A stretch of DNA of 64,000 nt, taken from positions 124,001 to 188,000 of the forward strand of contig JAQJVL010001201.1 of the NCBI GenBank assembly GCA_035578905.1, read 5' to 3'. The position numbers and the translations under genes were made by a program. The number at the start of each line of letters is the position of its first letter. Position 1 is the first letter of the stretch. The notes beneath the pieces were generated by a model. That model saw only the letters and a list, made by a program, of their open reading frames with translations, ran no database searches and was not told the origin of the DNA. Positions 5,593 to 51,961 of this stretch are shown here, piece after piece. Source of the DNA: Stictocephala bisonia. Lineage: Eukaryota > Arthropoda > Insecta > Hemiptera > Membracidae.

Positions 5593-5748
5593 CTCGAAGA
5601 CGCCCAAGCAGCGCACAAGCTTGCCCAAGACTCCAGCCTCTTCCTCAACCTCTCGGATGGCGGTGTTTCGTGGATCTTCATCAGGCTCTACACCCCCACC
5701 AGGCACAATCCAGTGGTCTGGTCGACTTGATGATGTTACCAGCAGAAC
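5593..5748 (-). CDS. Aps: Aps coding exon 2 (Nudix box)
   Basis: 52 codons beginning VLLVTSSSRPDHWIVPGGG and ending RCLGVFE. Acceptor TTTCAG and donor GTAAGA flank it exactly at phase 0 on both sides. All catalytic Nudix-box residues are present. The next exon should begin with the loop that follows GVFE in DIPPs; I did not find it in bases 1-5592. Confidence 0.95.
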
Positions 5749-20153: not shown

Positions 20154-20187
<34 letters not shown>

Positions 20188-24643: not shown

Positions 24644-24692
<49 letters not shown>

Positions 24693-30600: not shown

Positions 30601-33563
30601 TGATTGTCACTGAGATTGAAATACATATAAATAGATTGTATAAAATTATACATTAAAAACCATACAATGAACACTTTTGAATACCTTCAAAATCTATTGG
30701 CACCACAATTTAGAAACATTTTACAAGAGAAGTCATCTTATTTTATGTTTCTAAAAAGTGTAAAATATTTTAATAAAATAATTGTCAATATGACATACAA
30801 AATTTTGTGTCGTAAAGAATTCTCTACACATTTGGAAATAAAACAGTACGGTATATGATATATCCCTCTCAGTAGTATATTTATAATTTATACAATTTTT
30901 CAATAATATGTTTTCAAAATAACCGAAAATTACATGCTAGTAAAGGAATTTTCTCCTGCTAGGGTTAAGGTTAATAAGAAACTAGGAGATATCTGTATAA
31001 AATCCTTTAACAAGTATATTGAAACAATCTAAAAGATTGTTGTAACGCCAATAGTTTTGTGCCAATTTTTATTTTATTTTGTAACACAATATTCACAGTA
31101 TTTTTATTCCCTACTATTGCAGACAAAATATCAAAATAAAAAACTAGCACATCAAATACTGTGAGAGCATACTTAAAATAAGTAGCTTAACATATTCACT
31201 GTAGAGGAAGTCTAAAGATACCTCACACAACTTGCAAGTTCCTCTCGAACTTCCAATACAGTGTTATAATGTGAACTTACTCATTGCTGGAGAAAGTTTT
31301 ATTTGATCACCATTATGTGTGTTAATCAAAGTCCTTTTCCTTTATTGTATAGCATTTCCGAATCCACATTATTGTACTTAGCCTATGTAAACTTATCATA
31401 ACTACATATGATTAACTTATTTGTTATCAAAGTAGTTCTAGCCTATGAGGATAGTCAAATCGTTCATGTTAAGTATAGTATCATGTGGTAGGCCTAAATA
31501 TAGAGTGTCCCAAAACTAAACTTCCATGGCTCAATATACATACATAAACGTTCCTAGAAACAGGTAATCAAAATGATTTGTTATCCATCTGACTGGACTG
31601 TCTATTTTTATTATGAAATAATAACTAACTTATGAACAACAGTCATTAAAATTTAGTATAACAAGTAAACCCATTGGATGCTAAAGTCCTTGAAGAGCAA
31701 TATGCTGTCTCTTTTGCTTGAAGGCATGTAGACAGCAGACAGGATCCCATTTCCTGCTTTTCCAGCTTCAAATTTCAACTTTTCCATTAAAACTAGGCCT
31801 ACTGTAATAAAAGGTTAGTTGTGACCTGCAGTATATACATTTTAAAACATATTTTCTGTCTAACCTTTTCATTCTCATTCTGTTAATCGATATGTACTGT
31901 ACAGCATTTAAATTTAACGTGCATAAGTACTAATAATAAGTTTCCAGCGATATAAGTGTGTTTGGGTGAATTCTCTATAATCCGTCTATTCTCCAATCCT
32001 TCATGGCCGTGGTCCCGACCCCTGACAGAAAATAGGGTTTCTACTGTAATTGGGTTTTCAAAAAAATTCAGTCCAAAATTGCACTTTTTACTGACATAAC
32101 CTAAATCATCATAATTGTCTATTTAGGGTACTTGACAAAATTCATAATTTGTGTTGAATTCTAGTGCCTGGCCTCGATGATGGCCTGCTGTCTCGTCACT
32201 CCGGTGTGGATATAGGTGAATTCTGTTTAAGTGGTTAATATTTGTTGCATATAATGATCCTGTAATGGCCACTAATCGTGATTCACCGCAAAAGTAGTTT
32301 TTCCGTTATATCTCGAGAAATAATTAATATAGGCTTAGACCAAAAGAATTTTCAACTTGGGATTCAGTGCGAAAAACGCATCAAAATAAAAAAAACTGAT
32401 TAAATTACAATTAAATTTAATGGAAATATAATTATATAAAAAATACTAAAAGTTGTAAATTGGTTTTTTCGAATTTTTCGGTACCGAACTCACCTATATT
32501 CCTGCCAGAGTGATGGCCAGCAAGCCGTCACAAAAGCCAAACACTCGAATTTAATGCAAATTACGAATTTTTGTTGAGAAAATAGACAGATAGGATAAGT
32601 TAGGTTAGGTCAGTAAAAAATGCATTTTTCAGGCTGAAAAATAATTTTATTACAAAACCAGTTATACATAGGCCTATGTGTTTAGCATTAAAACACGATA
32701 CCGGTATGAAAAAGTTTTCGAAAAATAAGGATTTTTAACAAAGTAGATTTTGTTCACTATCAGATAAAAAACTAGTTTTCGATTTTTCTGCAAAAAACCA
32801 GTTTTCTGCCGATGAAATCAAGCTCCTCAAGAGATATAAACTCATATTTTACTACTTTTTCAACAAGAAATCGTCTTTTCAGAAGCGGCAAGAATGTGCA
32901 TAATTACCAAATTTTCAGTAAAATAATTTTTTAGGTGGCAAGAAACTGCATAAATACCTTAATCTATCTTTTTACATATAGGATAAATTGATCGAAAAAC
33001 AACAAATGTTGTAACCATGCATACTTAGGACTAATTTCTTTTCCATATTTTCAAGTTGGATACTGTTGAAGTAATAAACTCTGCAGGTCGTTACAGATGT
33101 AATGAACTATCTGTTAAACTTGCATCCAACTGTGACTAATTATAAGTAATGTTGGTTTACATGTTTCTTACAATTCTTAATTCCGAACCTCTTGTTGAGC
33201 TAAGAAAGAGAGCTTCCAGTTATAGATAATCAGTAGAATATGCTATGAAGTAGTAACTCATATACAAAACATTACTGTTATGACTAAATACATGCTAGAT
33301 AGGACTTAAATAATAATAAAAAAACTAGGTCTATGAATATTGATTTAGAGAACATGTGGCAATCACGTAAAAAAATAAACTGCTTCTCACTGAGGACACT
33401 GTAAAAATCATGAAAATACAATTAATTAATGATTAAATGGAAAATGCTATTAAATTAGACTTGCCTCATTTTCTGATTCGCTCCTCACACAAATGCAGGC
33501 AGCGCGTCTCCTGAATCCATCCTCATCATATATTCTTGTAGAACCAGGCTTCTCTTTAACCAT
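5593..33563 (-). CDS. Aps: Diphosphoinositol polyphosphate phosphohydrolase, 5' two exons
   Basis: Nudix hydrolase of the DIPP family (Drosophila Aps, vertebrate NUDT3/4/10/11): it removes the beta-phosphate of IP7/IP8 and also cleaves diadenosine polyphosphates. Two exons are in the window (33465-33563 and 5593-5748), giving residues 1-85 of an expected ~150-180; the C-terminal exons must lie left of base 1. Exon 1 encodes MVKEKPGSTRIYDEDGF, the conserved DIPP N-terminus. Exon 2 carries the complete Nudix box, G51-x5-E57-x7-R65-E66-V67-x-E69-E70-x-G72-V73, with the DIPP-typical WIVPGGG before it. The two exons join in phase 0. The intron between them is 27.7 kb, begins with GC rather than GT and is full of transposons. 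The start lies 346 bp from the divergent IP6K start. Confidence 0.92.
6128..6350 (-). pseudogene. Possible pogo/Tigger transposase DNA-binding relic
   Basis: The - strand reads EEKLHMMESLDSGESARKIS followed by STLRVG, which resembles the helix-turn-helix at the start of pogo/Tigger (CENP-B-like) transposases, then continues KQLAKIKLKLF before decaying. A 50 bp stretch beside it (from 6130) recurs near 32864, so the locus belongs to a dispersed repeat. The family call rests on a short similarity judged by eye. Confidence 0.35.
7099..9522 (+). mobile_element. Tc1/mariner-like element with ~500 bp inverted ends
   Basis: Both ends match as inverted repeats over roughly 500 bp: TTACTGTCAGATTCAAAAAG at the left pairs with CTTTTTGAATCCGACAGTAA at the right, and the arms continue to the shared TTTTATATCACATGATAATT near 7531 and 9015 (reverse complement). 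The right arm has a ~50 bp insertion. The centre holds a broken DDE transposase. It lies in Aps intron 1. Confidence 0.75.
8060..8760 (+). pseudogene. Decayed IS630/Tc1/mariner DDE transposase
   Basis: Pieces in several frames read FCTDEIWSG (first catalytic Asp, near 8250), MKRGWQESVIDSL, GKRIIILHIGNENGFIEGAEL, DYHNEMNSRHFVKW and NRAPYHIMMDPATKN, in the order of the catalytic core of this superfamily (DETW, GWQ, GxGKRLIIVHAG, YHxEMN, DNAxYHN). The second catalytic Asp before NxAPYH is not visible. Stops and frameshifts make it inactive. Longest open piece: 8281-8469. Confidence 0.7.
9917..10360. mobile_element. MITE with inverted ends
   Basis: TTAAGAGTCTGCAGAGGCTG at the left is repeated inverted at the right (10330-10352), and the similarity runs on to about 40 bp at each end. 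No coding potential inside. Family not recognised; similarity continues outside the TTAA, so a TTAA target duplication is not supported. Confidence 0.6.
13648..14515 (+). mobile_element. piggyBac-like element, non-autonomous, in LINE ORF2
   Basis: 868 bp flanked by TTAA on both sides (13644-13647 and 14516-14519), with perfect 13 bp inverted ends CCCTCCGATGGTT. TTAA duplication and CCC ends are the mark of piggyBac. The palindrome GTCGAAAAATCGAC occurs twice close to the left end (13665 and 13707, 42 bp apart). The LINE reading frame resumes cleanly once the insertion and one TTAA are removed, so it is younger than the LINE. Confidence 0.88.
13972..14109 (+). CDS. Short ORF, possible piggyBac transposase N-terminal relic
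   Basis: 45 residues starting MSELHTSGIDRELFNDSGDS and ending in KRRAPISGSESD. The acidic Ser/Asp-rich stretch followed by basic residues resembles the disordered start of piggyBac transposases. No catalytic domain follows, so this would be the stub left after an internal deletion. Confidence 0.45.
   Translation: MSELHTSGIDRELFNDSGDSKLQHFWRPSRGNRKRRAPISGSESD
14998..15939 (-). pseudogene. LINE ORF1: PHD finger, coiled coil, RNA-binding domain
   Basis: Begins MAAFCGICELECKEA at 15939, shifts frame and continues KCGGSCGRYFHIQCVK and EWKCEECS, giving the C-C...C-C...H-C...C-C pattern of a PHD finger. A Lys/Glu-rich coiled coil follows (about 15600-15480), then LEQYSRRCNLEISGLP, the start of the RRM-like domain typical of LINE ORF1 proteins, and VRKNDRERCYKI near the end. 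Two frameshifts, near 15870 and 15562. ORF1p coats the element RNA in related LINEs. Confidence 0.8.
16187..16342. repeat. Long near-perfect palindrome
   Basis: Arms of 77 bp (16187-16263 and 16266-16342) differ at only 4 positions and are separated by AA. Such DNA can extrude a cruciform, and its transcript would fold into a 77 bp hairpin. The arms match nothing else I noticed in the window. May be a fold-back element or an assembly artefact. Confidence 0.9.
16343..20100. other. Aps intron 1 stretch without recognised elements
   Basis: No gene. Contains poly(T)/poly(A) runs, a more complex segment at 17680-17960 and, at 18180-18490, a segment with TTCATAAAAATTGATCCATC and CACATACGGACAGACACAGC, a wording common in arthropod retroelement 3' ends; its family is not identified. 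Confidence 0.5.
20101..20188 (+). repeat. Compound microsatellite (GTGA)n (GTGC)n (GA)n
   Basis: Runs of GAGT, GCGT and then GA repeats, with few interruptions. Confidence 0.95.
20350..20379. mobile_element. Possible DNA-transposon terminal motif
   Basis: Contains CGTTACGTAATTTATGGACG followed by GCCCC; the reverse complement, GGGGCCGTCCATAAATTACG, has the look of a transposon end common in arthropod DNA. Related fragments (AAATTACGTAATGCT near 19988) lie to the left, but a matching left end was not found. Confidence 0.35.
20380..23156. other. Aps intron 1 stretch, nothing recognised
   Basis: AT-rich sequence without coding or repeat signatures that I can support, apart from a short run of CAGTATTA repeats near 23065-23110. 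Confidence 0.5.
23157..23228 (-). repeat. Two-unit fragment of the 36-bp minisatellite
   Basis: GCCCACCCATACACGTACAG occurs twice here. It is the reverse complement of the unit arrayed at 42924-43360, nearly 20 kb away, which shows the same repeat has moved. Confidence 0.75.
23608..24645 (-). mobile_element. Second piggyBac-like element nested inside
   Basis: Begins TTAA plus CCCTTTCAGTGCC at 23604, followed by three subterminal copies of TGCCGGRCAWT. A transposase C-terminus is encoded on the - strand. The right end is decayed: it carries the palindromic ACGTCCGG-(AAAACC)-type repeat near 24609 and runs into an (AT)n tract, so the right boundary is uncertain. Confidence 0.6.
24228..24405 (-). 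pseudogene. piggyBac transposase C-terminal cysteine-rich domain relic
   Basis: The - strand reads KNCCVCSKE, then TFMCSKCKKGIHNKCLSKHH ending C-stop at 24228. This C-x2-C ... C-x2-C-x4-H-x3-C ... H-x-C layout is the zinc-binding tail of piggyBac transposases, which binds the subterminal DNA. A stop lies just upstream in frame (near 24418) and the catalytic DDD domain is missing. Confidence 0.75.
24646..24688. repeat. (AT)n microsatellite
   Basis: About 20 uninterrupted AT units at the decayed edge of the nested piggyBac-like element. A shorter (AT)n lies at 23585-23603. Confidence 0.95.
24905..25015 (+). pseudogene. Possible piggyBac transposase N-terminal relic
   Basis: The frame KRSRLPISDNTIGN followed by YEESDESDH resembles the acidic start of piggyBac transposases; it lacks an ATG in place and stops after about 35 codons. 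Confidence 0.35.
26138..26446 (-). CDS. Unrecognised 102-residue ORF
   Basis: Starts MFVKCKHILHWNHDEFATKF and includes TFISIRTLGGDNSRRIVVLL and VLNKPLIKIVDL. The first ~75 residues have normal composition for a soluble protein; the end becomes hydrophobic and Phe-rich. Upstream in another frame, VFREWSDAIKLSIKIENE suggests the ORF once extended further. No splice sites or relatives are recognised; a transposon-derived ORF is as likely as an exon. Confidence 0.3.
   Translation of the reverse strand: MFVKCKHILHWNHDEFATKFKDYKIQPTFISIRTLGGDNSRRIVVLLQTSTHLRVLNKPLIKIVDLPIYSPNIFFFFIFRFLAIFYEKIKARVCCRSISKES
27687..27953 (-). mobile_element. SINE family A, full length
   Basis: Inverse copy of the family at 39084 and 61370: tRNA-like head with A box (TAGCGTAGTTGG) and B box (GTTCGATCCC), a unique body with TCATTTGTCATTGGGCTATT, and an AATA-repeat tail (here TTTATTTATTTATT). 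Inserted in the LINE fragment. Confidence 0.88.
28409..28903. mobile_element. pogo/Tigger-like MITE
   Basis: 495 bp flanked by TA, with ends CAGTAAAACCCCGATTATCA and, inverted, CAGTAGAACCCCGATTATCA. CAGT ends with TA duplication and GATTATC are typical of pogo-group elements. No transposase inside. Inserted in the LINE fragment. Confidence 0.8.
29505..29812 (+). mobile_element. LINE 3' fragment
   Basis: Reads CNATKLLN-LPEDIKM in frame pieces, the C-terminal motif of LINE ORF2 seen elsewhere in the window, and ends in AATAAAGAATCTTGATTGAT. Confidence 0.55.
29975..30445. repeat. Tandem duplication, ~237 bp period
   Basis: TGCATTCACGAATTCCTTTT at 29976 recurs, diverged, as TGCATTCACAAATTGCTTTT at 30212, and the two copies stay alignable to CATACAAAATACA near their ends. 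Non-coding. Confidence 0.8.
30446..33464. other. Aps intron 1, proximal part
   Basis: No gene recognised. Contains an imperfect inverted repeat (32178-32531) and, at 32864, a second copy of the dispersed repeat also seen at 6130. AT-rich throughout. Confidence 0.5.
32178..32531. mobile_element. Possible MITE, imperfect inverted ends
   Basis: The left arm with GGATATAGGTGAATTC pairs with the right arm GAACTCACCTATATTCC; further paired blocks are TCACTCCGG / CCAGAGTGA and GGCCTGCTG / CAGCAAGCC-like. Arms of about 50 bp with many mismatches. Confidence 0.4.
33465..33563 (-). CDS. Aps: Aps coding exon 1
   Basis: 33 codons from the ATG at 33563, ending RSESENE. The region FRRRAACICVRSESE aligns with the conserved start of animal DIPPs. 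The exon ends AATGAG followed by GCAAGT, the typical form of a GC donor; no GT donor is available in frame. Confidence 0.9.
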
Positions 33564-33909
33564 GATTGATTTTTTAAACTAATTAAATAATAAGGATTAT
33601 GAAACAAACAATTCACTAAAATATGGATTCTAGGCCTATCCCTAAGGTTCTAAATCACCGCAACTTCCTAACAACCGCCATACTATGATGTTTATAATTT
33701 AGCTTGAAGAAAAAGGCATATTAATAAAGTTAAAATAAACAATTCACAGATATTAAATAAAGGTTCTGAATAAAAAGCTAGAGCACTGAATACAGTACCC
33801 TTCAATTAGGACTACGAATTGACGGGCAACATAACGGCGTCCATGTCGCGAGCTAAAGGAACTCGAACGAACTTTCGGAGTCCGCACGACCGCACGAATA
33901 GACGAGACG
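33564..33909. promoter_or_regulatory. Putative bidirectional promoter of Aps and IP6K
   Basis: The whole space between the two divergent start codons is 346 bp, so both 5' UTRs and core promoters must lie here unless there are further non-coding exons. I count 17 CpG dinucleotides in about 118 bp (33813-33930), in sequence that is otherwise CpG-poor. No clear TATA box is seen facing either gene. On the Aps side there is a short upstream ORF (33681 down to 33655, 8 codons); on the IP6K side an out-of-frame ATG lies at 33843. Promoter function is inferred from position and composition. Confidence 0.65.
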
Positions 33910-33939
33910 ATGGATGCAGAGAACGCCGTATTAGCAGAA
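33910..33939 (+). CDS. IP6K: IP6K coding exon 1 (start codon, 10 codons)
   Basis: The ATG at 33910 opens MDAENAVLAE and is followed directly by a GTGTGA donor. Joined in phase 0 to exon 2 this reads VLAEPFIHQVGGHSSM, which fits the conserved VLLEPFIHQVGGHSSM start of animal IP6Ks almost residue for residue. An in-frame stop at 33832-33834 with no ATG between makes this the first Met in frame. The donor is weaker than the GTAAGT consensus and the exon is short, so another first exon in the 7.5 kb intron is not excluded. The exon sits in a CpG-rich patch. Confidence 0.72.
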
Positions 33940-36900
33940 GTGTGATGAAGTAAAAGAAGGTAAAGAAATGACGATCGGGCTTGGTAAAATGGAATGTTGG
34001 GTATATCAGCTGTTTCACAGGTTAACATGAAAACAAACATAGTGGAATCAATTAATTGAATTCAACTATTCAAGTCAAGTTTGAAGTACAGAGAGGATAT
34101 AATTTAAAAGAGTTAAACAAATGATATAAAGTAACATAGTAAAAGCATAGAAGGTCTATGGTAAAATGACCATCCTTAATTTAAAACGTATTCTTTTTGA
34201 AGTTTTCAAACAGGCTAAGCATTATTTAAGCACTAAGCTCGGTAAAAAAGAAACGGGTTTTACAGTAATCAGATATTTACTTTACTGGTATTATATTACT
34301 GGTAAATCCTTTTAAACTGGTTTAATGTTCAGTGGCAGTTTTGTTAAAAATAAGTCAAAGCACTCTTTTGTAGCTTATAAACGATTATTTGGGGATTTTC
34401 AAAAATATAATTTTGGCCAATGTGTTTTGATCAAATAAAATGTTAATAATTAGTACAATTAAGCTCCTTTAACCAATTAAATAAGTTTATAGCCTAAGTA
34501 TCTTGTAACAGTGTTATTTCTAAAAACTTGCCGTTATACATTCTCATATAAACTAATCGAATTAGCTTATATCCTCGCTTATGAATTGTTGTCAATCAAA
34601 TTGCTACCAAACCTGGTGCTCCTGTTAAGTCAGTATTTAGGATGCGATAATTGTCATTATGAAAGTAGGTTTGGAAAAAATCGTCACAATAATAAAAAAT
34701 ATGGAGAACATGGTGCTTCCCTTACTAATGAACTAATTCCATCCCTCAATGCGTTTGAAACAAAATCAAAGAATAAATGTAGATTTCAAAGACAATTTAA
34801 ATAAAAATAAATTGTCAAATCCGATAAAAAGCTCCATTTGAAAAGCTAGTAACAGATCAAAACAAAATTAGTGATCAGGATATTAAATTCACTAACTTAA
34901 TTCAATCCTGTGAAAGTGGAATATTGAATGAGCCCTTCAACTCAAAATGAATCAGGGAATTCACGTGTAATCATCACTTCTCGTAGTAGGCTTCGAAAAT
35001 TCGAACGAAAGTCTTTGCTAATTAAGTTCATTTGAACATTTGACTCTGTGATAAAAACTAATGATATGGTCTCCTATCTAGTTGAACTTCTCAACACATG
35101 CAACTCCCCTAGCTTTCCAACCCGCAAAGTTCTACAAAATTAGGGGGGACATAGAAAACTGAGGAATATAAACACATCAAAAATATACTTGGTACAAGTT
35201 TGAAAAGTAATACTTAAATCAGGACGTAATAGATGCCAAAGTACCAACAGACAGTGCTTAGGGAGAATCAATGTTTATACCGTTCATACCGGCTGGGCTA
35301 TTGCTACCTGGAGGTCCCTGTAGAAGTCTTATCAGAAGTTTTAAATCTTCCCTCATTTGAACTGCGATGTGATGTGGATGATATGCTGATTCTCTACAAG
35401 ATTATCAACTCACTCTTGCAGTGCCCTGATCTCCTTGCACAGATCGACTTCAGAGTACCAGAGCTCAGGCAATTTTAGTCGCAGATATCATTCCACCACT
35501 TTGACTTCTATGGCCCTCTGGCAATATTTGTTCGACTTGAAAATCCACTCAGAAAAACAATCAATCAAAAATGGCGTTCCTCAAGGCTCAATTCTGGGCC
35601 CGATACTGTTCCTGATAAACGATATGGCAGAGACGGTCTCGGACCAGAACCTCTTCATTTTTGCAGATGATACCACTCTTTTCACAAAAAACAAAAATCT
35701 GGAAAATTTGGAAATTGAAACAAATGTCAAAATTAACACCCTTGCACAATTATTTGCCAGCAACAAACTCAAATTAAACACAGACAAAACTGGGTATCTC
35801 TGCTTAAATACTGCCCAAAAGAAGAGAGCCACCGAAGTAGATAAAGTAAGTGTTGTTATTGGTGAGGATATGCTGGATCCCTCTGATTCAACTGATTTTC
35901 TCGGAGTGAGGTGGGATGATGGTTTAACATGGATTGACCAGATTGAAAAAATTGAAAAGAAATTGGCATCTGGGTTGTTTGTGTTAAAAAGAGTAAATAA
36001 ATTGTGTAGCATTAATGTATCTAGAATAGTTTGTTTTAGTCTACTAGAATCTCACATTATGTATTCCATAGCCTTGTGGGGTGGATACAAATCACTTGTG
36101 GATAAAATATTTATTTGGCAAAAAAAGGCTGTTAGAACAATTTTTGATCTTCCACCTTGGGAACATTGCGGGAGATACTTCTCCAGACTTGGTATTTTAA
36201 CTGCTCCATCACTATTTTTTTGAACTAGTTACCTACATTAGAACCCAAAACCTAACAGATTATTGTTAAAAAAATCACACTCACGATACCCGGTTTAAGG
36301 CTAAATTTTTCATCACCCATAGACTGGCGGTTTTTGAAAAAAAAATTGGGTGTGCGTCGGACCACACGGTGGAAGTTATACTTCTTTGGCCATTCTCATA
36401 CACCCACTCACGCACACAAACAGACAGGATATATAAATGAAATATAAGACATTTTTCAATATTATTCAATATATTTATCTTCAATATATTATACGTGACT
36501 TCATTATTATATTATACACCTATATTATCATTATCAGTAATTTCTTCGATTAAATTTCTTCGATTAACAATCGATTAATCGATAGTTCTTAAAAATTTGT
36601 TCTTACTTTTCAGCGTGACGCGGTTTCTCGACCAACATCCCATCCCAAAGTGTCTAACGGGCGCAAAGAAGTATAACTTCAAAAACACTTTATGCTGGTC
36701 TTAAATTCTATCAATCACTTCCAAAATTTGTTTCCGAAATAACTGACAATAGAAAATTTAAAGCATATTTGAAAACATTTCTAATAGCTGACTGTTTTTA
36801 TTCTGTGGAAGACCTCACAAACCATCTAAAAATTTGTAATCCAACCTGCAACTTCCTCAACCCACCCCAACCAAATATTGGCTAACCTAGAGTTGGCACT

Positions 36901-39900: not shown

Positions 39901-42900
39901 GCAAGTTTTTATCAAACAGTGAGTATCTAAACTATTAGAAACTATATGAAAAGTAACTCAGTTTGTGTATGTAAGGTTGTACATCCAAACTAAGCTTATT
40001 AGAATTTACTTGGATGTATGATAAACAAGACAAGTATACTCCTCATGTTTGCGAGGGTCTTTTTTGGGAGATACATGCAGGGTGTTTATTTCAAAACCTA
40101 CCACATTGATGCTTCAATATCTAACAAGTTAGCAAAGTTTATGTTTAAAGAGGGACCTTTATTACTTATTGGAGGTACCAAAAAGAAAATATTTCTAAGA
40201 ATAGGTTGTTACCCTCCCCTCTCAGTCAAACTAAACATTTTCAATCTAAATCTTATAGTACCTCTAATGAAAGCCTGTTCAAAATTTAAAGTTTTGTTAC
40301 AAACATTTTAAAATCCCACCAATTGTTTAGTCACTTGTAAAAGCCTATTTTCGGCGTTTCCAAAAAACATTTTTTAATATGTGCTAAAGGTAAAGTTATA
40401 CTAAAAACATTGTCAAAGTATTAAAACATGTATAACTTGGATTGTTTTGGTAACATGCTTGTAATATAATAGTCATAAACAACACTACTTCTATTTTTGG
40501 TTTTTAAACATTTTAACTAAACATTTTCAAATAGAGGTGAGTGACAACTCATTGTATGCCCTAACAACGCAGAGTAATTTGCCATAAAACGTTTTTAAAT
40601 TGGTGTACTAGCTATGTTGTTTGGTTGAAATAGTAATTTTTACACTGGTATAAATTACATACACATGACTAAACTGTTATTTCAATTTAAACATTTTTTT
40701 TCCAAAACTTTACATTTTGAATGGGTTTTCATAAAATGTACTACATGGTATAGGATGCAGTTTGAACATTTTTTAGTTTGAGTGGGGGAAGGGGCTTAGT
40801 GGTAACAACCCATTTTTGGAAATATTTTCCTGTTGGTTCAAGCATTAAGTAATAAAGGTCCCTTTAAACATAACTTTGCTAACTTGTTTGGTATTGAAGC
40901 AACAAATGTGGAAAGTTTTCAAATGAACCCTCTGTATATATAACATGCTTTAATGAGCATTGGCTGACAGACATTCATTCTGAAATCACAAGAAGCATCT
41001 ATATTGCATCATATATACATACATAGACATTATTCATATTTGGTGATGTTGAATGAGTTTTGGCATCTATTTTATTTTGATGCTGCACTGTTATCGGAAA
41101 AAAATCTGTTTTGTTGTATGAATAACTAAACAAATTATTAGGAAAAAGGATTAATCTTGAGCATTAGGAACATTTGATGGTTATTAGGACAACTCTATCA
41201 CTATTTTTCTACAAGTTTTCTCAGATCTTTGGATAAACTTAACTGTGACATTTTCCAACTGTTCATTACTCTTTTTTTCATTGCCATCTAATGTAAGAAT
41301 TCCTCAAGCTTCTAATATTAAAATGTGGACTTTATTTAATCATTAGTATAAAATACATAAAAATACAAGGATGCTGTCTGTACTTATAACAAGCGCTGTT
41401 CTTCAGTCATAAAGACGAAATACTGCTACTGTAGACTATACAGGTGCCTTCAGTTACAGCCATTTATTCACCAAGTCGGTGGACACTCTTCCATGCTCTG
41501 TCTCGATGAAGCAACTGTATGCAAGCCTGTTGTAACACAAGAGCTACAATTTTACAAAACCATTCCAGAATGTTTGAAACAGTTTGTGCCAATGTACTAT
41601 GGAACAGTGAAAGTCGATCCTATTCAAGATGGAGACTATATAATTCTTTCAGCCACGAAACCATCTAACTATAGCCCACAGCCTTCTAAAACCTTGAAAC
41701 AGTAAGTTCAATTTTTTATTTAGCTGTAATTAGATACATATTTCTTTGTTCATACAACTGTTTATCTATTTTGTACATTAAACGTTACGTTTCTTTAGTG
41801 AACGCATGACATTACATTACTATTTTGTGTATTTTTAACTATTATATTTCTATTTCATGGTTTTGTAATATTATAACATATCATATATTACTCATAAGTT
41901 TTTCTCTTTATATTTAAATTAGTATCTATTTTACTAATACTAATTATTATTCGTGGATTGTAATAAGCGGTATTCGTGGATTGCCTCTCTAGTGGATAGA
42001 ATCGTACTTGAGTGATCGGATACAGCAAGTCAAAGTAAACGACAAGCTTTCAGAAAAAATTAAAATAACGAATGGCGTCCCACAGGAGTCAATTCTTGGG
42101 CCGATTCTGTTCCTTTCTTACGTGAACGACCTAAATTTGACTTTGTCCACTGGAGGAGTAGTACAGTACGCCGATGACACTACCCTTATTTTTAAAAGCG
42201 AATCCAAAGAATCTCTGGAAATTTTAACTTACCGGAAAGTAAATGCTTGCATCCAACATTTTTCTGAAAACCGACTAGACATGAATAAATCAAAGACTAA
42301 TTTTATTTGCTTTGCTCCTCGCAGAAGAGTTGGCAGGTGCAGTTTGAACGTCATAATTGATAATACCCTTATTGAAGAAGTTAACTGCACCAAGTTCTTG
42401 GGTATGCACCTAGATAAAGGGCTGACTTGGGACTGCCATGTAGACTCAGTCTGTGCAAAGCTGTCTTCAAACTTATTTGTTCTCAGATATTTCGCAAAAG
42501 TGTGCTCACTACATGTATTAAAAATGGTGTATTATGGCCTCGTGTACCCGCATTTGTGTTACGGAATTACACTGTGGGGAAGTTGCACGAATACTAATTT
42601 TCAAAGAGCATTCGTTTTGCAGAAAAAAGCACTTAGAATTATACTTAGGCTGACTGTAGGGCGATGAAGTAGTTCCTCCGCGACACTAGTGTGGTATAGG
42701 CGGATGACTCCCACCACTGGAACTGTAAGGATGGAGCTGCCGGACAAGTAGGCTAAAAGGGACCACTATCAGATGGAGAAAAGGTCACTAATATCACCTC
42801 ACATTCGTTACCAAACTTTGACTTTTAGAATATTCTAAATTAATTGACCAGTCAGCTGTTGACGTTTTACGGTTGATTGTGTCTAAAAAAATTAATTGCT

Positions 42901-45900
42901 ACACTTACAATTACAATACTACTGTACGTGTATGGGTAGGCGGGTGGGTCAATACTACTGTACGTGTATGGGTGGGCGGGTGGGTCAATACTACTGTACG
43001 TGTATGTGTGGGCAGGTGGGTCAATACCAATGTACGTGTATGGGTGGGCAGGTGGGTCAATACCAATGTACGTGTATGGGTGGGCGGGTATGTTAATAAT
43101 AATGTATGTGTGTAGTTGAGTGGGTCAATATCACCGTACGTGTATGGGTGGGCAGGTGGGTCAATACCAATGTACGTGTATGGGTGGGCGGGTATGTTAA
43201 TAATAATGTATGTGTGTAGTTGAGTGGGTCAATATCACCGTACGTGTAAGGGTGGGGGTCAATATTACAGTATAGGTATAGGTTTCTGGGTGAGTTAGTA
43301 CACCGTACGTTAGTGCGTGTGTAGGTCAAGTGTAAGGGTGGGTAAGTGGGTAAATTTTTTCTGGTTGTCAACGAAATGCAAAAGTAAAGTTGAGGATTTT
43401 TGCTAAATAGTGTTATCACGAATGAATGGACACAATACATGCCCCATAATAATAACATACACAAATAGAAGTCATGGAAAACACGCAAGGACTTTAGGTA
43501 ACAAGAAATATAAAAAGCTCTCCGCCCACCTGAATAATTCCTGAATAAACCTGAAAAATCGAGAGTCGTGTCATGGGTCGTTTAAGGAGTTGGGTCTGCT
43601 TACTTTACCGTCTTTATACATGTACGAGACCATCATCTACTGGTCAGTTTAAATGCAGTCTGCCCCGAGGCAGTAATGTACATGAGCACGCAACGAGAGG
43701 CAGGGATGATTTTAGACAAGATCGCCACCGCCTAAAACTGTTTGAAGCGTTACCTTCCCAGGTCGGTGCTAAACTGTTAAATAAACTGCCAATAAACATA
43801 AAGTTTCAAAAAAGCGAAAAGCTATTTAAAACCAAACTTAGGAGTTTTCTTATTATGGTGCCTTTTACAGTGTGTGATTTTCTCCAGGTTTAAAGGTAAA
43901 ATGGTATGTTAGTTCTCTATTGTGGAGTGTCAAAGTGTTTTTACTATTAGTTTTGACTAGTGTTTCACGGAATTGATGACATTATTTTAGTTTATAATTT
44001 GTTAGGTTTAATGACACTTGCTGTACAATTACACATTGTGAAATGGCAAATAAAGAATATTCTATTCTATCAAATTAATTAAAATGTTTGACATTTTAAT
44101 TTTAATCAAATGCAACCATCATGATAATTGAGTCAAATGTCTAAAGAGTGATTTAGGAAGTTGGATTCCTTACAGTTTATAAGTCTTATAAACATTAGAT
44201 AGCTTTACTCTTAAGTTAAAAAAGGAAATTGCAGAATCAGGATGTTTTTAGATTTCCTTTGAGTTTTCGATTCATTTCATTCATTTTGTGAATCATGCCC
44301 TGAACTGTGCTAAATTAACTAAAGCAGGATGAGTCAGGGTACAATTTCCATTCATCCAATTGCCCTTAACTTAGACAACAAAACAAATTCACTTACACAA
44401 TCAGAATATGTTCTGACAGACCTATCTGTCCATTTAACGTTTGTCATGATAGAAATGCTATCTCATTTCTATTTTTTTTATTCAGTGTCTGCAAGATTAT
44501 AATTTAACAATTTGTAAATTAGCAAATTGCACAAGGTTTACGATAAATCAGTAAAGTTGACTAATACCATTGATTTTATTAGCACATAGATAGATTTCTC
44601 ATCCAATGTTAAATTTTGTGAATCAAATTATGAACTGTTTTTGTGGTCCATTGTTGAGTGCAAGTGCAGTCCCATGTCAATGTACTGCAGTTTAAACCAG
44701 CTGTGGTTGCGGGCCTCACTATCTAACAAATTTACTGGCACAAATATTCCTGTTTCATGAGATATCTATTTGTAAATAATAATGCAATCAAGGCTAATTA
44801 CTGATTTACCTTCCTCCACACTCAAAACATTCACTAATCAAAAATAATTTATATTGAAGTTGAAACTCAACCTACAGGATTTTATTCTAACAGTAGTGCT
44901 TGAAGTAGTTGTCAAATGTTCCAGACTGAGGCTGCATAAGAATGGTAATATAGAAGTGGATGGAATGCCAGTCTCAGCCACTTTTGAGTGCGACCAAACA
45001 ATGAGTGAAACCTCGGCGCAAGTGAACCCATGGGTACTTAAGTGCCATAGAGAGTACATTGCCAAACTGATGGATGAAAAGGGAGGCGAGTCATTGCCTC
45101 TTGGTATCCTTTATAAAGTCTTCATGAAGTGCTTTTAAAGTCCAAGGCAACACATACATCTTTATTTATTTTAATATACAAAATATTAGTGAATAGTTTC
45201 AAATCTTGAGAGAAAATGCTGATATCTAAAGTGACAGTTTTATCTTGGAACTTATGCTTAAGTGGCTGGTGTTATCACTAGAATCTATATTTTTAGGTGA
45301 CGTCCGCGTCAAGATGCTATCTACATTATGTACAAGATAACCAGACGTTTCGCCCATGCTGTGATGTGGCATCCTCGTTGGTAATGCATATCAGATATCA
45401 GTGGTGGTGGTCTCAGCGATACCACTGAGGATGCCACATCACAGCATGGGCGAAACATCAGGTTATCTTGTACATAATATAGATAGCACCTTGACACGGT
45501 TGTCACCAGAGAAAATATAGATTCTAATTATGACAGTTTTATGTTTAGACTCAATTGAGTCTCACAGTTATTTTTAAACGTTTCAATGCCTTGTCAATGT
45601 AGCATTCAGGTAATACATTATTGTGCCCTATTGTAAAAAACTTATCTTAAGAAATTTGTAATTTTACTTTTTATTGGTTCATATTTTCTAGAAGATTGAT
45701 TTTTACCTTTGAATTCTTAAAGTTAAGTCACGGGGTTTTTTTTTTAATAACTATACCTGTCGTAAATTACTCAATTTATAAAATAATATGTCTGTTTCTC
45801 AAGTACCCTAAACTACCAAAATATTCTCTTAGACTAATTTTTGTAATTGAGTTTCTGTTATCACTACGGTACCATATGATTATACGATTATGCATTTAAT

Positions 45901-48900
45901 ACAAATATAAGTATTCAAAATACAACTTATAATTATTTATGGTTTATTACAAAATGTTGACTGTGCATATTTTTGTTTACATACAATCAAGTTATAATTA
46001 CTTTATTGCCAAATAATAGAGGACACAAATTAAATTTGAATTACTACTTTTTATAATTAAATCCTTAACTGAGTTATACAGATTTCATGGTATTAGAGAA
46101 TTTGACATGGAGGTTCAGTTTACCTTGTATTTTGGATCTTAAAATGGGTACGAGACAACATGGAGACAATGATAGCTTGGCAAAACGTCAGAGAAAAATG
46201 GTAAAAGTAATTTCTACCACTACGGCAAAATTGGGTCTCAGAATTGGAGGAATGCAGGTACGGACTTTAGCTATAAAGATTTGTGGACTCTCATAATGTA
46301 ACTTTAGTATAATTTAATAGTACATCAAATAATATTTCTTAAACAACGTAAAGAATAAAAATCAATAGATTATTAATAGAAAGACAATAAATATCTTTGA
46401 AAGTTTTATGTTGCCTATCTTGGATAATTGATTAAAAAAATAGATTAATTATTTCATTTTTAATTTAATAGGACGACAAAGCTGATTTTTTATAGCTATT
46501 TTGTTACACAGTACAATTTTAAAACATATGAAATGTTTTTACCGAGCTGAATTTATTGAAAAGTTTAAAGTTTTGTTTATCTGTTTTGTCAACTACTTAA
46601 TCTTGCATCGTTCTCTAACATTGCTTATTGCTTATGTACGGAATCTGAGTCTGGGTTTCATATACCAGCTTAAAAAGGTTAATAAAATTGTATTCAGTAT
46701 AAAAACACATCTTTACTTTAGCTAATTAGTGGCTAATGATAAAGTAACCGGCAGCAGCAGATGTAGTTAGATGCTTGGTTTCAGTTCACTCAAAAGTTTC
46801 TTCACAAAACTACAGACCGGGTTTAAGAAAAGCCTCCACTTATCTTGATAACAATTAAAGACTATGTTTTGTTTCAGAACTCGGATAAAAAAAAAAAAAA
46901 AACTGCAAAATAACTATTAACAACATTGATACAGTTGAAAATGGACTACCAAATATTATTGATCAAGTACCCCAGTCGCACATGGAACTACAAATCAGGC
47001 CATTAAGAAAAGTATTCCCTCGTCACAAAAATATGCTTTAAAGAGTCAAAAACACTTGCGTTTGTGGTCTGTAATAGTCAAAGACCCAGCTACACTAGAG
47101 ACGGTTGCATGATTTTAAAGAAAACTAAAACTGACAAGTGAACCGTGCAATGGTTATGCATATCCTCGGATTCCGAGTCTGGGATGTTTCAGTTTTAAGT
47201 TAAGTTTAACTTTAATTTAAAACTAAAACTGAAACTGAAACATCTCAGACTCAGAATCTGAGACTGTGCACAACCATTGCATGGTTTACTTGTCTGATAG
47301 TTAAATGTGCTTTATACGAGGTGTATTCAGAAAGTAAGTACCATTTCAATGTACTGCCGCTGCAGCTCTGCAGTCGGCATTCTGCACATGCACTCTAGTC
47401 GTTCTTATTCACTGGCCCGAACTGATGCCATTTTGGTTGCTCTACATTGTGCTTTTAGTTTTCTTTGCTCTCCCCCTGATTGTGAGGTCCGTTCTGTAAT
47501 AAGATGCAAAGGATGTGAAACCGGCTGATTTTATTTTTAAATAATATGTAAAGTCTTATAATTGTTATTAATATGTTTCCATGTATTATGAGGTTAAGTT
47601 GTGGAGGTTAACTTCGCCTCTTGGAAAAATTAAGATGTTTTCCATTTCATTTAATCAATTCATTTTCGTTTAATTTATAGTACACTTTCAGATAGTTGAT
47701 AGTTAATCTATACACTTATTGGCCTTGTTGTAATTATGACAATTTTGAGGTTAAACAAAGATTTTAACCCTTTCGATGCTGCTGTCCGATATATCGGACC
47801 GCGGTAGTTACGCTAAAAATGCTGCGGTCCGATATATCGGACCGCTCGTAATTTTTTTTTTCGATAAGGCATTTTCGTTAATATGCCATATATACGGTAC
47901 CAATCTGTTGATAATTGATTATAGTACTCAGAAAAAGTGTTTAAAACATCTTTTAAATATGCGTTTGTTGAAATATATTTGTCACTCTTGAAATTATCGC
48001 TCAAATGTGACAAATATCTGATTTTGTACTGTCGAAAAAAGTTACGATAAATCCTGGGATTTTCTAGGTAAGACTTTGAAATTTGGTATGCATGTTAGTA
48101 ATTAAATGTTCTTTCAAATAAAGTCACTTTTATAGCCCTAGTATTTTTTTTTGTATGGTCTAAAAAGTTTCTAAATTGAAAAATTAAAAAAAAAATTTTA
48201 ATTTTTTAAAAAAGTTGATTTTACAAATTAAAACCAATATTTTATTTAAGAAAATATATAAGTAGTAAAAAGAGCATTTCAAAACAAGAAAAACCAAAAA
48301 ATAATTATGAAAATATATTGAAAAATAACAAAGTTAGAACAAAATAACGTAAACTATGCATATTCACTAAAAATACCCCCGGCATTTCTCGCATACCAAG
48401 GGAAAAAATGCCCGGCATCGAAAGGGTTAACATTTACCTTTACTATTACAATAAATTATCAGAACTATCATTAACAATATAAATAAATAAAACACATATG
48501 GAACTAAACAAAAAATAATAAATAAAACACAAAACTAAATATAAATAAAGATCAAATATTCATGAATACAATCAGCTGGAATTCTCTTATATTTTTGATT
48601 TTGTACTGATGTGAATTCTGCATGATTTTGATGATTTGAGATAAAGTGTTGAGGATATTGTTGCGATAGGCTCTATGCTTAGTGCTTTTATACCGACACA
48701 GCATCTGCTTAATGGTTGTCATCGACATAGATATTACTAGAGAAGTCTGAGGTGCCCATGTTGGATGGTAGTCAAGTTCCGGATGTTTTGTAAGGAAGAG
48801 AACCATGTTTCAGGCTTGTCAGTTAGCTGAAAATCAGACCAACACTACGTGGTTCAGATTCCACATAAAGCTGTAGGTCCCTTAGTTGCTCTGGCTATTG

Positions 48901-51900
48901 GGCTATTAATAAATAGCTCTTTCTGAGGAACAGTTGACCTTAGTTAGTAACAATGACTACACTCATCCATCTACACTCATCACATTCATTCGCTCCTCAT
49001 ATACACCCATATCTTGACGATCAGCGTCTTATGAATCAATAATTAATAAATAATAATGAATGTGCAGGTGTATCAAGCTTCATCAGGAAAATTCCTCTGC
49101 TTCAATAAACTATATGGTCGGACACTATCAGTGACAGGGTTTCACAATGCATTGCGCAAATTCCTGCATGACGGAACTTGCCTGCGTACTGATGCTTTGC
49201 CCCCACTCATCCGCAGATTAGAGGAGCTTCATAACACTCTGTCTGGTCTGGATTCCATCAGATTGTTTACTACGTCTTTGCTGCTGCTCTACCAGGGCCG
49301 GGAAGCCAGTGAGTAAGTGCAATACTATTAAATTTTATTATCGTGGGCTTTAGATATTGTGAAACTTCATTAACCTGAGAGAACTTACATTGATTTTAAA
49401 ACACAACATTTCATGTTCAGAATTTTTTCCTGGTCATAAAATAACCTTTTTTATCATGCATTAATTTATTATTTATTATCTGATGAAAACTAACTTTAAC
49501 ACACAGCTATTATAAAAAAATGTATCGTAAATGAAAAACTAATCTAAATGTATCATTAGACATGTAAAATACAATATAAGATAAACAGTTTTGATGTTTA
49601 GATTATATTTAAACCAGTCTCGAGTAAATTGATAGAAGATAAATTTGTCAGGAGACACAATATGCAAATATGTATGGTAGTGATGGAAACGAAGAGAAAT
49701 TCTTATAATAGATAAATGTAAGAGCTCATCTCTAGAAGTGTTATTTTATACAGAATTCTTGAGTGTTCTTACCTTCAATCCAACTTGATTCCTCGATCGA
49801 TTATTGAGATATCGATTTTACGTCCTTATAGCCATCATCACTTCCAAACGAAGACCAAGTTTTTTTTCGATATCGCAATAGTTGACCTAGGGATCAAGTT
49901 GGATTGCTAAGATAACAGGACAAGTATTATTAAGAAGTTAATTGGAATTATGATTAAACAAGTTTTGTACATTTGTAAAACAGTTGATTATTGAGATTAG
50001 CCACTTTTTGAATACATTGTTTTAATGCAACAGAGAAAAATATTGTAAGAATACTGGAATGCTTTTCGTTTCTCTAAAAGTAACTAAAAGTAACAAAAAC
50101 ATCAAGTAATGCACCAGTACTCACTTAGGCACGATACACTTCACTGCCCAGTTCACCGGCTTGCTCTATATGAACGGGGTGTTTTTTATTCCGCCTTAAG
50201 GCTTCACAACAATCTACCAACACATAATAAAAATCAAAGAACCCTGTCTGGGTTTAGGGGAACTCTCAGAGGCCATCTCATTGATTAGTCTTACTACTCA
50301 GTAAGAGAGTTTTTTGATAAGTAGTCATCTTAGTTGATAATGATCTAAAGTATTTACTTATATTGTTCTGTATTATTATCATTAGACAATTTTATATTAT
50401 TGTACTATAGATAATGACTAGTCATATGTTTACTGAAGACTTTCTTCTTGATTGTAAACCGATGGGACAGAAATAAATAAATAAATAAATAAACTGTAGT
50501 TTATCACATCCCTTTTCGGAATCATTTCATCAAATCATTTCATGGTTATTTCGATTGACAATTCCTATCAATACACAGTTATGATGCCAAAAAAGAGGAA
50601 AGTTTCTTAAATCTGATAACAAATTTAGAAGAAATAGAGGAAATATTAAAATTTATAAAGATTAAGTGTATAGTTTCAGTAGAAATATAAGTACAAATTG
50701 GTTTCTATAACTATTATGTTAAATATTACTGCACAATATTACTGTACTAACACAATGTACCGTTTATTACAGTGACAGGGACACTGTTAATGGTGACAGT
50801 AACGAAGTTTGCAACGCTAAGGAGTCTGAACTAGAAGAACGGGCTGGCAGAACAAGTAGTGTCGATCGACAAAGTGACTCATTAAAAGTCCACAACAACT
50901 TCCGTCACCGCAGTTCTAGCTGTAATCCTTCAAGAAAGCCGTAAGTTGTTCTGTGATTCTATTTTCAATAGAAGTAAGTTGTTCTATTTTTAATGATTAT
51001 TTTTGGCAAAATTTCTTTTTTTCAGTTACTAAATAAAGTTTTTAAATATGTATTTAGTATTCAGTTTTTGGTGGGAGTATGCCTTACAAGTAAGGTTACA
51101 GTCTGACAATAGAGAACTTACGAAAGAAAAAGCATAGAAAGTAAGAAAACTGAGAACAAGATTCCAATAAAATACAAACGAAGAGGCGCTTTTCATGTAG
51201 AGAAGTAAACAAAACCTGAGGGAATAACAACAATTCAGAAATCAGAAAACTAAGAAACACATTGGAGATAACACATAACTTAACTAACACAATAAGTTAA
51301 AAAAAATGTAATACATTTATAACTCCTCAATGTTTAATAACTGTGGTGAATGGTTTGGAAAAACCAATAAATCAACTATTTTGATATAACTAAGCCGTAA
51401 AATGAGAAAATGTTACCTTCGCCTTCATTTATTCAGTTTTTTTAATGCCATATTTGGTGACGAAAAGCAATTATTTTACCTAAACTCTGTATTAGAATGC
51501 TCAACCACTGTCACTTAATAATTTTACGATATTTCCATTTAATGATAAATAGTATTCCCTCCTATTAATTAAAAAAAAAATCGGTCACAATCCAACTTTC
51601 AAGCCTTTCATCTACCTTAAAACTTTCATAATTCAAACATTTTCTTATCTAGTTATAACTAGAATGACTTAGCTGACACCCCTTCTTTTACAGCCGTCAC
51701 CTTCACTACTTACGTATCACTCGCTTAATTTCAATTTGCAAGTTTTGTAATAAATAGATATATAACAGTTTCAGGCCTGTAGAATGGACGAAGGAAGAAC
51801 CCCTGACTGATGTTCGCATCATCGACTTTGCTCACTCGACACACCAAGCAATGGATGACTCAGTCACATACACTGGCCCTGACAGCGGCTTCTTGTTTGG

Positions 51901-51961
51901 TCTCAGCAACATGATCCAGGCTCTTAAATCAATTCAAACTGATTCTAAATCATGTCACTAA
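33910..51961 (+). CDS. IP6K: Inositol hexakisphosphate kinase, seven coding exons
   Basis: Kinase that phosphorylates IP6 to the inositol pyrophosphate 5-IP7 with ATP, in cytosol and nucleus. Exons: 33910-33939, 41460-41701, 44925-45103, 46082-46257, 49068-49312, 50773-50940 and 51775-51961. All six junctions keep frame and give 408 residues, the usual IP6K size. Seen in the protein: HQVGGHSSM at 14-22, CKP at 31-33, NPW at 125-127, the inositol-phosphate-kinase signature PCILDLKMG at 165-173 (P-x3-D-x-K-x-G), RQHGD at 175-179, TSLL at 278-281 where the family usually has SSLL, and the metal-binding IDF at 362-364. A Ser/Arg-rich, poorly conserved linker covers about 291-350. The gene lies head to head with the Nudix hydrolase Aps, which degrades its product. 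Identity is certain from the motifs; the least certain parts are exon 1 and the exon 3 donor. Introns carry LINEs, SINEs and MITEs, but the coding frame is intact. Confidence 0.93.
33940..35232. other. IP6K intron 1, proximal part
   Basis: No gene. An ORF-like stretch at 34511-34804 and fragments to 35140 may be decayed transposon coding sequence but are not recognised. Confidence 0.4.
35233..35510 (+). mobile_element. LINE ORF2 C-terminal fragment
   Basis: LNLPSFELRCDVDDMLILYK followed by INSLLQCPDLLAQIDFRVP is a typical LINE ORF2 tail. It abuts a second LINE fragment from a more upstream part of ORF2, so two insertions are joined here. Confidence 0.65.
36345..36681. mobile_element. MITE inside the LINE
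   Basis: Bounded by GAAGTTATACTTCTTTG (36373) and its inverse CAAAGAAGTATAACTTC (36665-36681); about 28 extra bases lie outside the left repeat. It interrupts the LINE frame between FEK and NTLYAGLKF. Family unknown. Confidence 0.6.
37085..37126. repeat. Compact hairpin, 19-20 bp stem
   Basis: CATAGACCTTGTATTATACC, then TA, then GGTATAATAGAAGGTCTATG: the halves pair with a single G-G mismatch. The end motif AAGGTCTATG also occurs at 34151 in the same intron. Confidence 0.85.
37462..38602. other. IP6K intron 1, no feature
   Basis: AT-rich, with many short AACAATAA-type repeats (37550-37930). Nothing coding recognised. Confidence 0.5.
38603..39040 (+). mobile_element. SINE family B
   Basis: tRNA-like A box TGGCGCAGCCTG near the start, then a body with CACTACTAGAGAAGTCTGGG, AGCACTACGTGGTTAAGATT and GCTGTAGGTCCCTTAGTTGC. 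The last third (CTATTAAT..., TTTCTGAGGAACAGTTGA) is a relative of the family A tail. A second copy lies at 48640. Confidence 0.8.
39084..39366 (+). mobile_element. SINE family A, full length
   Basis: tRNA-like head (A box ATCGTAGTTGG, B box AGTTCGATTCC), body and AATA tail as at 61370. It lies directly after a family B copy in the same orientation. Confidence 0.9.
40078..40934. mobile_element. MITE with ~230 bp inverted ends
   Basis: The left arm from CAGGGTGTTTATTTCAAAAC pairs with the right arm that reads, inverted, CAGAGGGTTCATTTGAAAAC; both continue through AACAAGTTAGCAAAGTT and GGGACCTTTATTACTTA. Non-coding middle. Lies in IP6K intron 1; family not recognised. Confidence 0.75.
41460..41701 (+). 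CDS. IP6K: IP6K coding exon 2
   Basis: Residues 11-91, beginning PFIHQVGGHSSM and including VCKPVV and FYKTIPECLKQFVPMYYGTV, a conserved N-terminal lobe of IP6K. The acceptor is TTACAG ending at 41459; a second AG at 41452-41453 would add only Leu-Gln in frame. The donor at 41702 reads GTAAGT. The exon ends after two bases of a codon. Confidence 0.92.
42665..43560. other. Insertion in the LINE carrying a minisatellite
   Basis: Separates two parts of one LINE reading frame, so it was inserted later. Starts with non-repetitive sequence (TTCCTCCGCGACACTAGTGT), then the 36-bp array, then 200 bp unique sequence. No inverted ends or duplication found; family unknown. Confidence 0.6.
42924..43360 (+). 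repeat. 36-bp minisatellite (GTGGG-rich)
   Basis: Unit roughly TACTGTACGTGTATGGGTGG plus GCGGGTGGGTCAATAC, spaced 36 bp at 42924, 42960 and 42996, then drifting. A larger block containing TTAATAATAATGTATGTGTG is duplicated (about 43090 and 43197). Strong G/T strand bias. Long ORFs here are a by-product of the 36-bp period. Confidence 0.9.
44073..44924. other. IP6K intron 2, distal part
   Basis: Unique AT-rich sequence leading to the exon 3 acceptor; nothing else recognised. Confidence 0.5.
44925..45103 (+). CDS. IP6K: IP6K coding exon 3
   Basis: Residues 91-151. The acceptor TTCCAG restores the frame left by exon 2 (CA plus A gives Gln). The exon contains VNPWVLKCHREYIAKL, matching the NPWGL-CH block of IP6Ks. 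The donor at 45104 (GTATCC) is weak but is the one whose phase fits exon 4. Confidence 0.85.
45280..45526. mobile_element. Fold-back MITE in IP6K intron 3
   Basis: Arms 45280-45376 and 45427-45526 are inverted copies (GATGTGGCATCCTC / GAGGATGCCACATC, and GAATCTATAT / ATATAGATTC at the outer ends), about 100 bp each with few mismatches. TA lies outside both ends. Confidence 0.85.
46082..46257 (+). CDS. IP6K: IP6K coding exon 4 (catalytic signature)
   Basis: Residues 151-209, starting DFMVLENLTWRF after acceptor ATACAG. It holds PCILDLKMGTRQHGD, the defining inositol-phosphate-kinase motif, and ends RIGGMQ at a consensus GTACGG donor in phase 0. Confidence 0.96.
47133..47294. repeat. Fold-back repeat in IP6K intron 4
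   Basis: GACAAGTGAACCGTGCAATG pairs with CATTGCATGGTTTACTTGTC at the far end; arms of about 68 bp with several mismatches around an AT-rich centre. Confidence 0.8.
47768..48426. mobile_element. TTAA-flanked piggyBac-like MITE in IP6K intron 4
   Basis: 659 bp between TTAA copies (47764-47767, 48427-48430), ends CCCTTTCGATGC perfect and inverted. The 16-bp perfect palindrome GTCCGATATATCGGAC occurs twice near the left end (47784 and 47827, 43 bp apart). No coding sequence. Confidence 0.85.
48640..49055 (+). mobile_element. SINE family B, at the IP6K exon 5 acceptor
   Basis: Second copy of the family at 38603 (CACTACGTGGTTCAGATTCC, GCTGTAGGTCCCTTAGTTGC), lacking the 5' head. Its tail (AATTAATAAATAATAA) ends about 12 bp before the exon 5 acceptor, so it supplies the sequence where a branch point and pyrimidine tract are expected. 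Confidence 0.82.
49068..49312 (+). CDS. IP6K: IP6K coding exon 5
   Basis: Residues 210-291, VYQASSGKFLCFNKLYGRTLSV through FTTSLLLLYQG. It contains the GRxLSV block and the SLL motif. The acceptor TGTGCAG has almost no pyrimidine tract because a SINE ends about 12 bp upstream. The donor at 49313 reads GTAAGT. Confidence 0.95.
49776..49906. mobile_element. Small inverted-repeat element in IP6K intron 5
   Basis: CAATCCAACTTGATTCCTCG pairs with GGGATCAAGTTGGATTG; arms of about 45 bp including a GATATCG block on each side. Confidence 0.65.
50097..50500 (+). mobile_element. LINE 3' fragment in IP6K intron 5
   Basis: In frame pieces read YSALRLHNNLPTHNKNQRTL and FRGTLRGHLID, a LINE ORF2 C-terminus, followed by a 3' UTR and an AATAAATAAATA tail. 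Its tail type matches that of the SINEs. Confidence 0.65.
50773..50940 (+). CDS. IP6K: IP6K coding exon 6 (linker)
   Basis: Residues 291-347. A polar linker rich in Ser, Arg, Asp and Glu with no conserved motif, as expected between the SSLL and IDF segments. Acceptor TTACAG and donor GTAAGT both fit the phases of the neighbouring exons. The start could vary by one alternative AG. Confidence 0.85.
51440..51692. repeat. Direct repeat, copy 1, before IP6K exon 7
   Basis: About 250 bp (AAAAGCAATTATTTTACCTA, GATAAATAGTATT, AGAATGACTTAGC, ACACCCCTTCTTT) repeated at 52330 with an offset of 890 bp. The two copies flank the terminal exon. Confidence 0.85.
51775..51961 (+). CDS. IP6K: IP6K coding exon 7 (terminal)
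   Basis: Residues 347-408. It contains DVRIIDFAHST, with the metal-binding Asp of the IDF motif, and GPDSGFLFGLSNMIQAL, the C-terminal GPDxGxxxGLxxL block, ending in TAA at 51959-51961. The acceptor is TTTCAG. About 250 bp direct repeats flank this exon. Confidence 0.96.

Follow-up and report, generated by a model that had tools for sequence, protein, structure and literature searches.

Phosphate sensing, energy metabolism and vesicle traffic are connected through IP7, and the balance between its making and breaking is an open question. In Stictocephala bisonia, a gene for an IP6K and a gene for a DIPP of the Aps type are neighbours pointing away from each other. Does this arrangement couple the two enzymes, or do they share a place and nothing else? 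If genes for opposing enzymes have stayed neighbours in insect orders that are only remotely related, they provide a natural test of coupled control. The window, that is, the whole 64-kb stretch analysed, corresponds to C1201:124001-188000 (base 1 is C1201:124001) in a genome of 1.68 Gb assembled in 11105 contigs.

IP6K and DIPP genes on opposite strands

The plus-strand gene at 41454-51961 is IP6K by its sequence, and 5-IP7-making activity is predicted for its product. Exons 2-7 join in phase at GT-AG sites, yielding a protein of ~410 aa, and the translation, putative exon 1 included, matches Pfam IPK (PF03770, 2.3e-50). The motifs by which IP6Ks are recognized are named PxxxDxKxG, IDF and SSLL. 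The first two are present (Table 1), and the SSLL position reads TTSLL, as it does in Homalodisca, Gryllus and Diploptera. Among the best 120 of 1230 relatives, the top matches come from the leafhoppers Homalodisca vitripennis (67% identity) and Macrosteles quadrilineatus (65%), and the products are called IP6K, Kinase or kcs1 or are unnamed, none being named IPMK or IP3K. Of the solved structures, IPMK has the top score, with Entamoeba IP6K below it.

The minus-strand gene encodes a DIPP. Its four exons join into a 148-aa frame and span 51.7 kb, of which 27.7 kb is intron 1. This intron starts with GC on both C1201 and the contig C8715 described below. The translation matches NUDIX (3.5e-21) over residues 18-128, and the part encoded by exons 1 and 2 aligns with human DIPP1/NUDT3 and DIPP2/NUDT4 across all 85 residues; the same two proteins are the best relatives of solved structure. 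The pattern of the Nudix box is GX5EX7REUXEEXGU, which is complete in Stictocephala as in the human proteins. When the genome was searched with a relative of full length, six matches were obtained, namely the four C1201 exons, a copy of exon 1 on C8715 and a distant Nudix match on C88 (33% identity). The C1201 gene is thus the sole DIPP gene found in the genome by a search that scores only the best candidates. Intron 1 also contains, at 11121-15901 (minus strand), open frames judged by eye to be LINE-retrotransposon-like (reverse transcriptase, ORF1-like).

Table 1. Features of the IP6K-DIPP locus (positions in the window unless a contig is given)
Feature	Position	Strand	Basis or remark
DIPP exon 4	C1201:105882-105988 (same contig, outside the window)	-	
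DIPP exon 3	C1201:117470-117554 (same contig, outside the window)	-	
DIPP exon 2, with Nudix box	5593..5748	-	translation, alignment to human DIPPs
DIPP exon 1 (Aps-type)	33465..33563	-	codes MVKEKPGSTRIYDEDGFRRRAACICVRSESENE; ends at GC donor (AG/gcaagt)
Spacer between DIPP ATG (33563, -) and putative IP6K ATG (33910, +)	33564..33909		346 bp
CpG-rich block, candidate promoter for one or both genes	33751..34000		CpG counts
Putative IP6K coding exon 1 (MDAENAVLAE)	33910..33939	+	donor rank 2 of 50 candidates
IP6K exon 2	41454..41701	+	begins LQPFIHQVGGHSSM...; intact on contig C8715
IP6K exon 3	44925..45103	+	weak donor TTG/gtatcc, 1.1 bits
IP6K exon 4	46082..46257	+	PCILDLKMG motif
IP6K exon 5	49068..49312	+	TTSLL
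IP6K exon 6	50773..50940	+	serine-rich linker
IP6K exon 7	51775..51961	+	IIDFAHST, stop codon

The junction and its CpG-rich block

A second contig, C8715 (18,686 bp), is collinear with 31831-36345 (97.3%) and 36681-42513 (96.3%); it includes exon 1 of DIPP, exon 2 of IP6K and the junction between them. It differs from C1201 by 172 substitutions over 10298 aligned sites and, judged by this, is probably the other haplotype and less probably a recent duplicate. An assembly join at the junction is ruled out by C8715, which carries the same junction; since the two contigs agree, this holds for either origin of C8715. The original prediction, which had named the two genes as IP6K (+) and DIPP/Aps (-) in divergent, head-to-head order, thus survives on both counts: the domain matches support the identities, and on one contig DIPP runs leftwards from 33563 while the IP6K exons lie at 41454-51961. 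The 335 bp at 36346-36680, CpG-rich at low GC, are missing from the otherwise collinear C8715 and are probably a polymorphic insertion.

The CpG maxima of the window fall at the junction, with 19 CpG per 200 bp at 33801 and 17 at 33751, and CpG observed/expected in 33801-34000 is 1.79 versus 0.61 for the window overall. Other peaks within 33401-41453 reach at most 10 per 200 bp, one of them at 38551-38850. Second in CpG density within the window is 47651-48000 (14 per 200 bp), which has low GC and contains a repeated AAVRYIGP-coding unit.

From the position of the two genes, joint control is plausible, and a promoter shared by IP6K and DIPP is likely. Pointers to shared control are the CpG peak and, weakly, the small number of differences between the contigs, which is 2/346 in the spacer versus 172/10298 overall; DIPP exon 1 has 0/99. 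Low divergence is not unique to the junction, and a stretch as quiet (1/600 at 39801-40400) makes the support for constraint there weak.

A putative first exon of IP6K

The earliest homology-supported exon of IP6K, at 41454, lies 7.9 kb from the DIPP ATG. The best candidate for the start of the gene is the putative ATG at 33910. The frame that it opens meets a stop after 11 codons unless spliced at GAA/gtgtga, a weak donor of 3.9 bits by a splice-donor matrix; on the same scale the donors of IP6K exons 2-6 score 1.1-10.8 bits. An alternative donor at 33960 has 7.3 bits and would render exon 1 non-coding. Between 33564 and 41453, 50 candidates run from an ATG to a GT in phase 0 over 5-14 codons; ranked by donor score, the exon at 33910 comes second among them. 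The candidate with the better donor, at 35870-35905, sits in a reverse-transcriptase remnant and was rejected.

By similarity to the N-termini of relatives, MDAENAVLAE is outside the 15 best of 87 candidates. Peptides from the N-termini of three relatives (Homalodisca, Macrosteles and Cuerna arida), used as queries, have no match in 33400-41460 above shuffled queries (best scores 25, 24 and 33, against means of 24.3, 24.7 and 31.6 after shuffling, respectively). In 10 of the 15 insect IP6Ks compared, 11-13 residues precede L[EQ]PF or LQAY, and the putative Stictocephala peptide would contribute 10, though in its letters it is not significantly similar to them; the number is 3 in Pediculus and 31 in Cuerna, and the records of Ranatra, Periplaneta and Bacillus rossius have no such N-terminal segment. 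The distance of 346 bp originally proposed between the two gene starts therefore stands in part: the two ATGs are that far apart, and the figure applies to the genes on condition that the putative ATG at 33910 is the IP6K start. A comparison with the 1 kb within which the divergent transcription starts of a bidirectional-promoter pair should lie depends on the same condition.

The pair in other animals

Linkage in other species was read from protein listings (the best 120 of 1230 for IP6K; the best 120 of 287 and of 467 for DIPP), as IP6K and DIPP rows with contigs of equal size, each row representing a single contig. Among the matches listed, ten species have both rows, and the contigs agree in seven of them (six of seven insects, one of three non-insects). 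Tight linkage is found in three insects besides Stictocephala bisonia. The cockroach Diploptera punctata has consecutive locus tags (L9F63_001705/001706) on a contig of 6,044,515 bp, and so does the dragonfly Ladona fulva (J437_LFUL006969/006968; 1,270,719 bp), which bears out the adjacency in relatives on which the original prediction depended. In the body louse Pediculus humanus corporis, both genes lie on one scaffold of 228,646 bp and are thus close, though not necessarily adjacent. Matches on larger contigs are weaker evidence: Thrips palmi (18.3 Mb), Schistocerca cancellata (964 Mb), Anabrus simplex (1.24 Gb) and, outside insects, Liolophura sinensis, where IP6K and one of two listed DIPPs have a 60-Mb contig in common. 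Homalodisca (239 versus 0.5 Mb) is uninformative, as the rows probably come from different assemblies. In Centruroides vittatus and Tegillarca granosa, the contigs disagree, so the genes are unlinked there, which counts against an old pair. Overall, the neighbourhood appears to be kept across distant insects and the pair appears to be old. Head-to-head order is seen in Stictocephala bisonia only, the listings giving no strand.

In mammals, the linkage is looser. The available part of one source places IP6K3 and NUDT3 of pig together between 29.48 and 31.57 Mb on chromosome 7 and lists LEMD2 and GRM4 between them, unlike in the Stictocephala pair (PMC9714057); a table in the accessible part of another includes both IP6K3 and NUDT3 for a segment of rat chromosome 20 (PMC9416443).

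Many of the best 120 of 1230 IP6K relatives are unnamed. Those with a name come from barnacles, springtails, spiders, molluscs and fishes, among others, but from none of the beetles, flies, moths and wasps, all of which are represented among the DIPP matches listed. This suggests, as a lead, that insects with complete metamorphosis have lost or strongly changed the Stictocephala-type IP6K. Planthoppers and a whitefly also have listed DIPPs and no named IP6K partner among the best 120 of 1230. Comparison of the insects keeping the pair with its apparent losers would test joint control.

No description of IP6K-DIPP adjacency in insects was found in the titles or abstract starts of open-licence PMC papers, in line with the original statement that no linkage of these genes was known. 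In open-licence PMC papers, a DIPP name and "bidirectional promoter" were found together only in a reference list, and the accessible main text of a eukaryote-wide review of inositol kinases contains no "synten-" word (PMC8024741). The linkage in insects thus appears to be a new observation.

A second IP6K gene

The genome encodes another IP6K at C359:723571-742244, of the same family as that on C1201 and with a catalytic core split into exons in a similar way, but different in sequence; presumably, it resembles Drosophila CG10082. The 60-kb stretch around it (C359:685001-745000) holds no DIPP, which rejects a duplicated IP6K-DIPP pair within that stretch and sets this gene apart from that on C1201. 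Its place in the trees is uncertain. A careful tree was built from 39 proteins, the 41 rows of a quick tree less the long-branched Macrobrachium and Eurytemora; in it, the C359 protein falls with vertebrate IP6Ks on a long branch. Grouping with insects is borderline in the AU test (p-AU 0.051) and grouping with arthropods is not rejected (0.144). Two ancient IP6K lineages are one possible reading of this placement. The C1201 protein groups with those of Homalodisca and Macrosteles (100/100); they belong to a 15-row insect group (100/99), which contains all six insects with agreeing IP6K and DIPP contigs. Given the second gene, the C1201 pair is not the sole maker of IP7.

Origin and possible role of the arrangement

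The reading that we prefer, with a probability of roughly one half, is that IP6K and DIPP are an old gene pair at one CpG-rich stretch transcribed both ways, by which the two enzymes are made together. The CpG block at 33.75-34.0 kb would start transcription in both directions, and a kinase converting IP6 to 5-IP7 would be produced jointly with a phosphohydrolase converting 5-IP7 to IP6. Judging by the reactions known for both families, we infer that raising the two enzymes would accelerate the IP6-IP7 cycle without fixing how much IP7 there is. The pair would thereby set how fast IP7 turns over rather than its level, and quick responses would become possible when one of the two enzymes is further controlled. 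Such coupling could explain why the neighbourhood has lasted despite the introns of up to 28 kb that have grown around it. The ATG at 33910, with its weak donor and no homology support, weakens this reading. That the pair sets IP7 turnover as a unit, as originally proposed, is a more tentative step, further weakened by the second IP6K and the broad substrate range of DIPPs, which also act on diadenosine polyphosphates, polyphosphate and mRNA caps.

A bidirectional promoter of the ordinary kind, serving two broadly expressed genes, would yield the same map. The opposing activities would then be coincidental, without a turnover unit, and the pair would stay together since breaking the shared promoter would harm both genes. 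This account differs from joint production only in whether the relation between the enzymes matters. The CpG block is consistent with a promoter of the broad type, and with a second IP6K, IP7 synthesis need not follow the junction promoter. According to the accessible parts of two papers, head-to-head pairs are common, those within 1 kb involving ~10% of mammalian genes (PMC2194621), and their promoters are often shared (PMC2194621, PMC7817982). The Stictocephala genes resemble CDT2-INTS7 and SERPINI1-PDCD10, as far as the sources at hand describe these, in being close and divergent at a CpG-rich junction and in being kept in relatives. The likeness is incomplete: the Stictocephala products, unlike those of CDT2-INTS7 and SERPINI1-PDCD10, catalyse opposite directions of one reaction, and compared with known bidirectional pairs, two-way transcription is here a prediction and the divergence is known from one genome. 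We consider an ordinary promoter possible, if somewhat unlikely.

A broader version of joint production, which we hold to be rather unlikely, would date the divergent promoter coupling both enzymes to the ancestor of winged insects. Holometabola would then have lost this IP6K, and with it the unit, and kept DIPP and the other IP6K.

The genes may instead be neighbours only, the CpG block being the promoter of DIPP and IP6K starting from a promoter of its own between 34 and 41.4 kb, with no common control. Two observations agree with this: the first sure IP6K exon is distant, and the exon at 33910 is not supported by homology. Against it, the other peaks in 33401-41453 reach 10 CpG per 200 bp compared with 19 at the junction; the CpG peak at 36451-36700, tried as a rival IP6K promoter, was set aside because it overlaps the insert missing from C8715. 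Nor was a better first exon found outside the reverse-transcriptase remnant. Independent neighbours are distinctly unlikely. Highly improbable is a leftover of chromosome-scale linkage shared by many animals, with adjacency arising here by chance, which agrees with the contig-level matches of Schistocerca, Anabrus, Thrips and Liolophura and with the 2.1-Mb pig interval for which LEMD2 and GRM4 are listed between IP6K3 and NUDT3 (PMC9714057, as far as accessible) but not with the consecutive tags in cockroach and dragonfly or the 229-kb scaffold in louse.

Outside the window, the nearest conserved gene seen past the DIPP 3' end encodes a selenium-binding protein, with exons in C1201:26103-38439 (minus strand; SBP56, 3.3e-24 and 1.7e-16). 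The same contig contains, at C1201:224462-231198, long open frames with a repeated KISNSPTDYCMCF-like peptide, evidently a tandem array.
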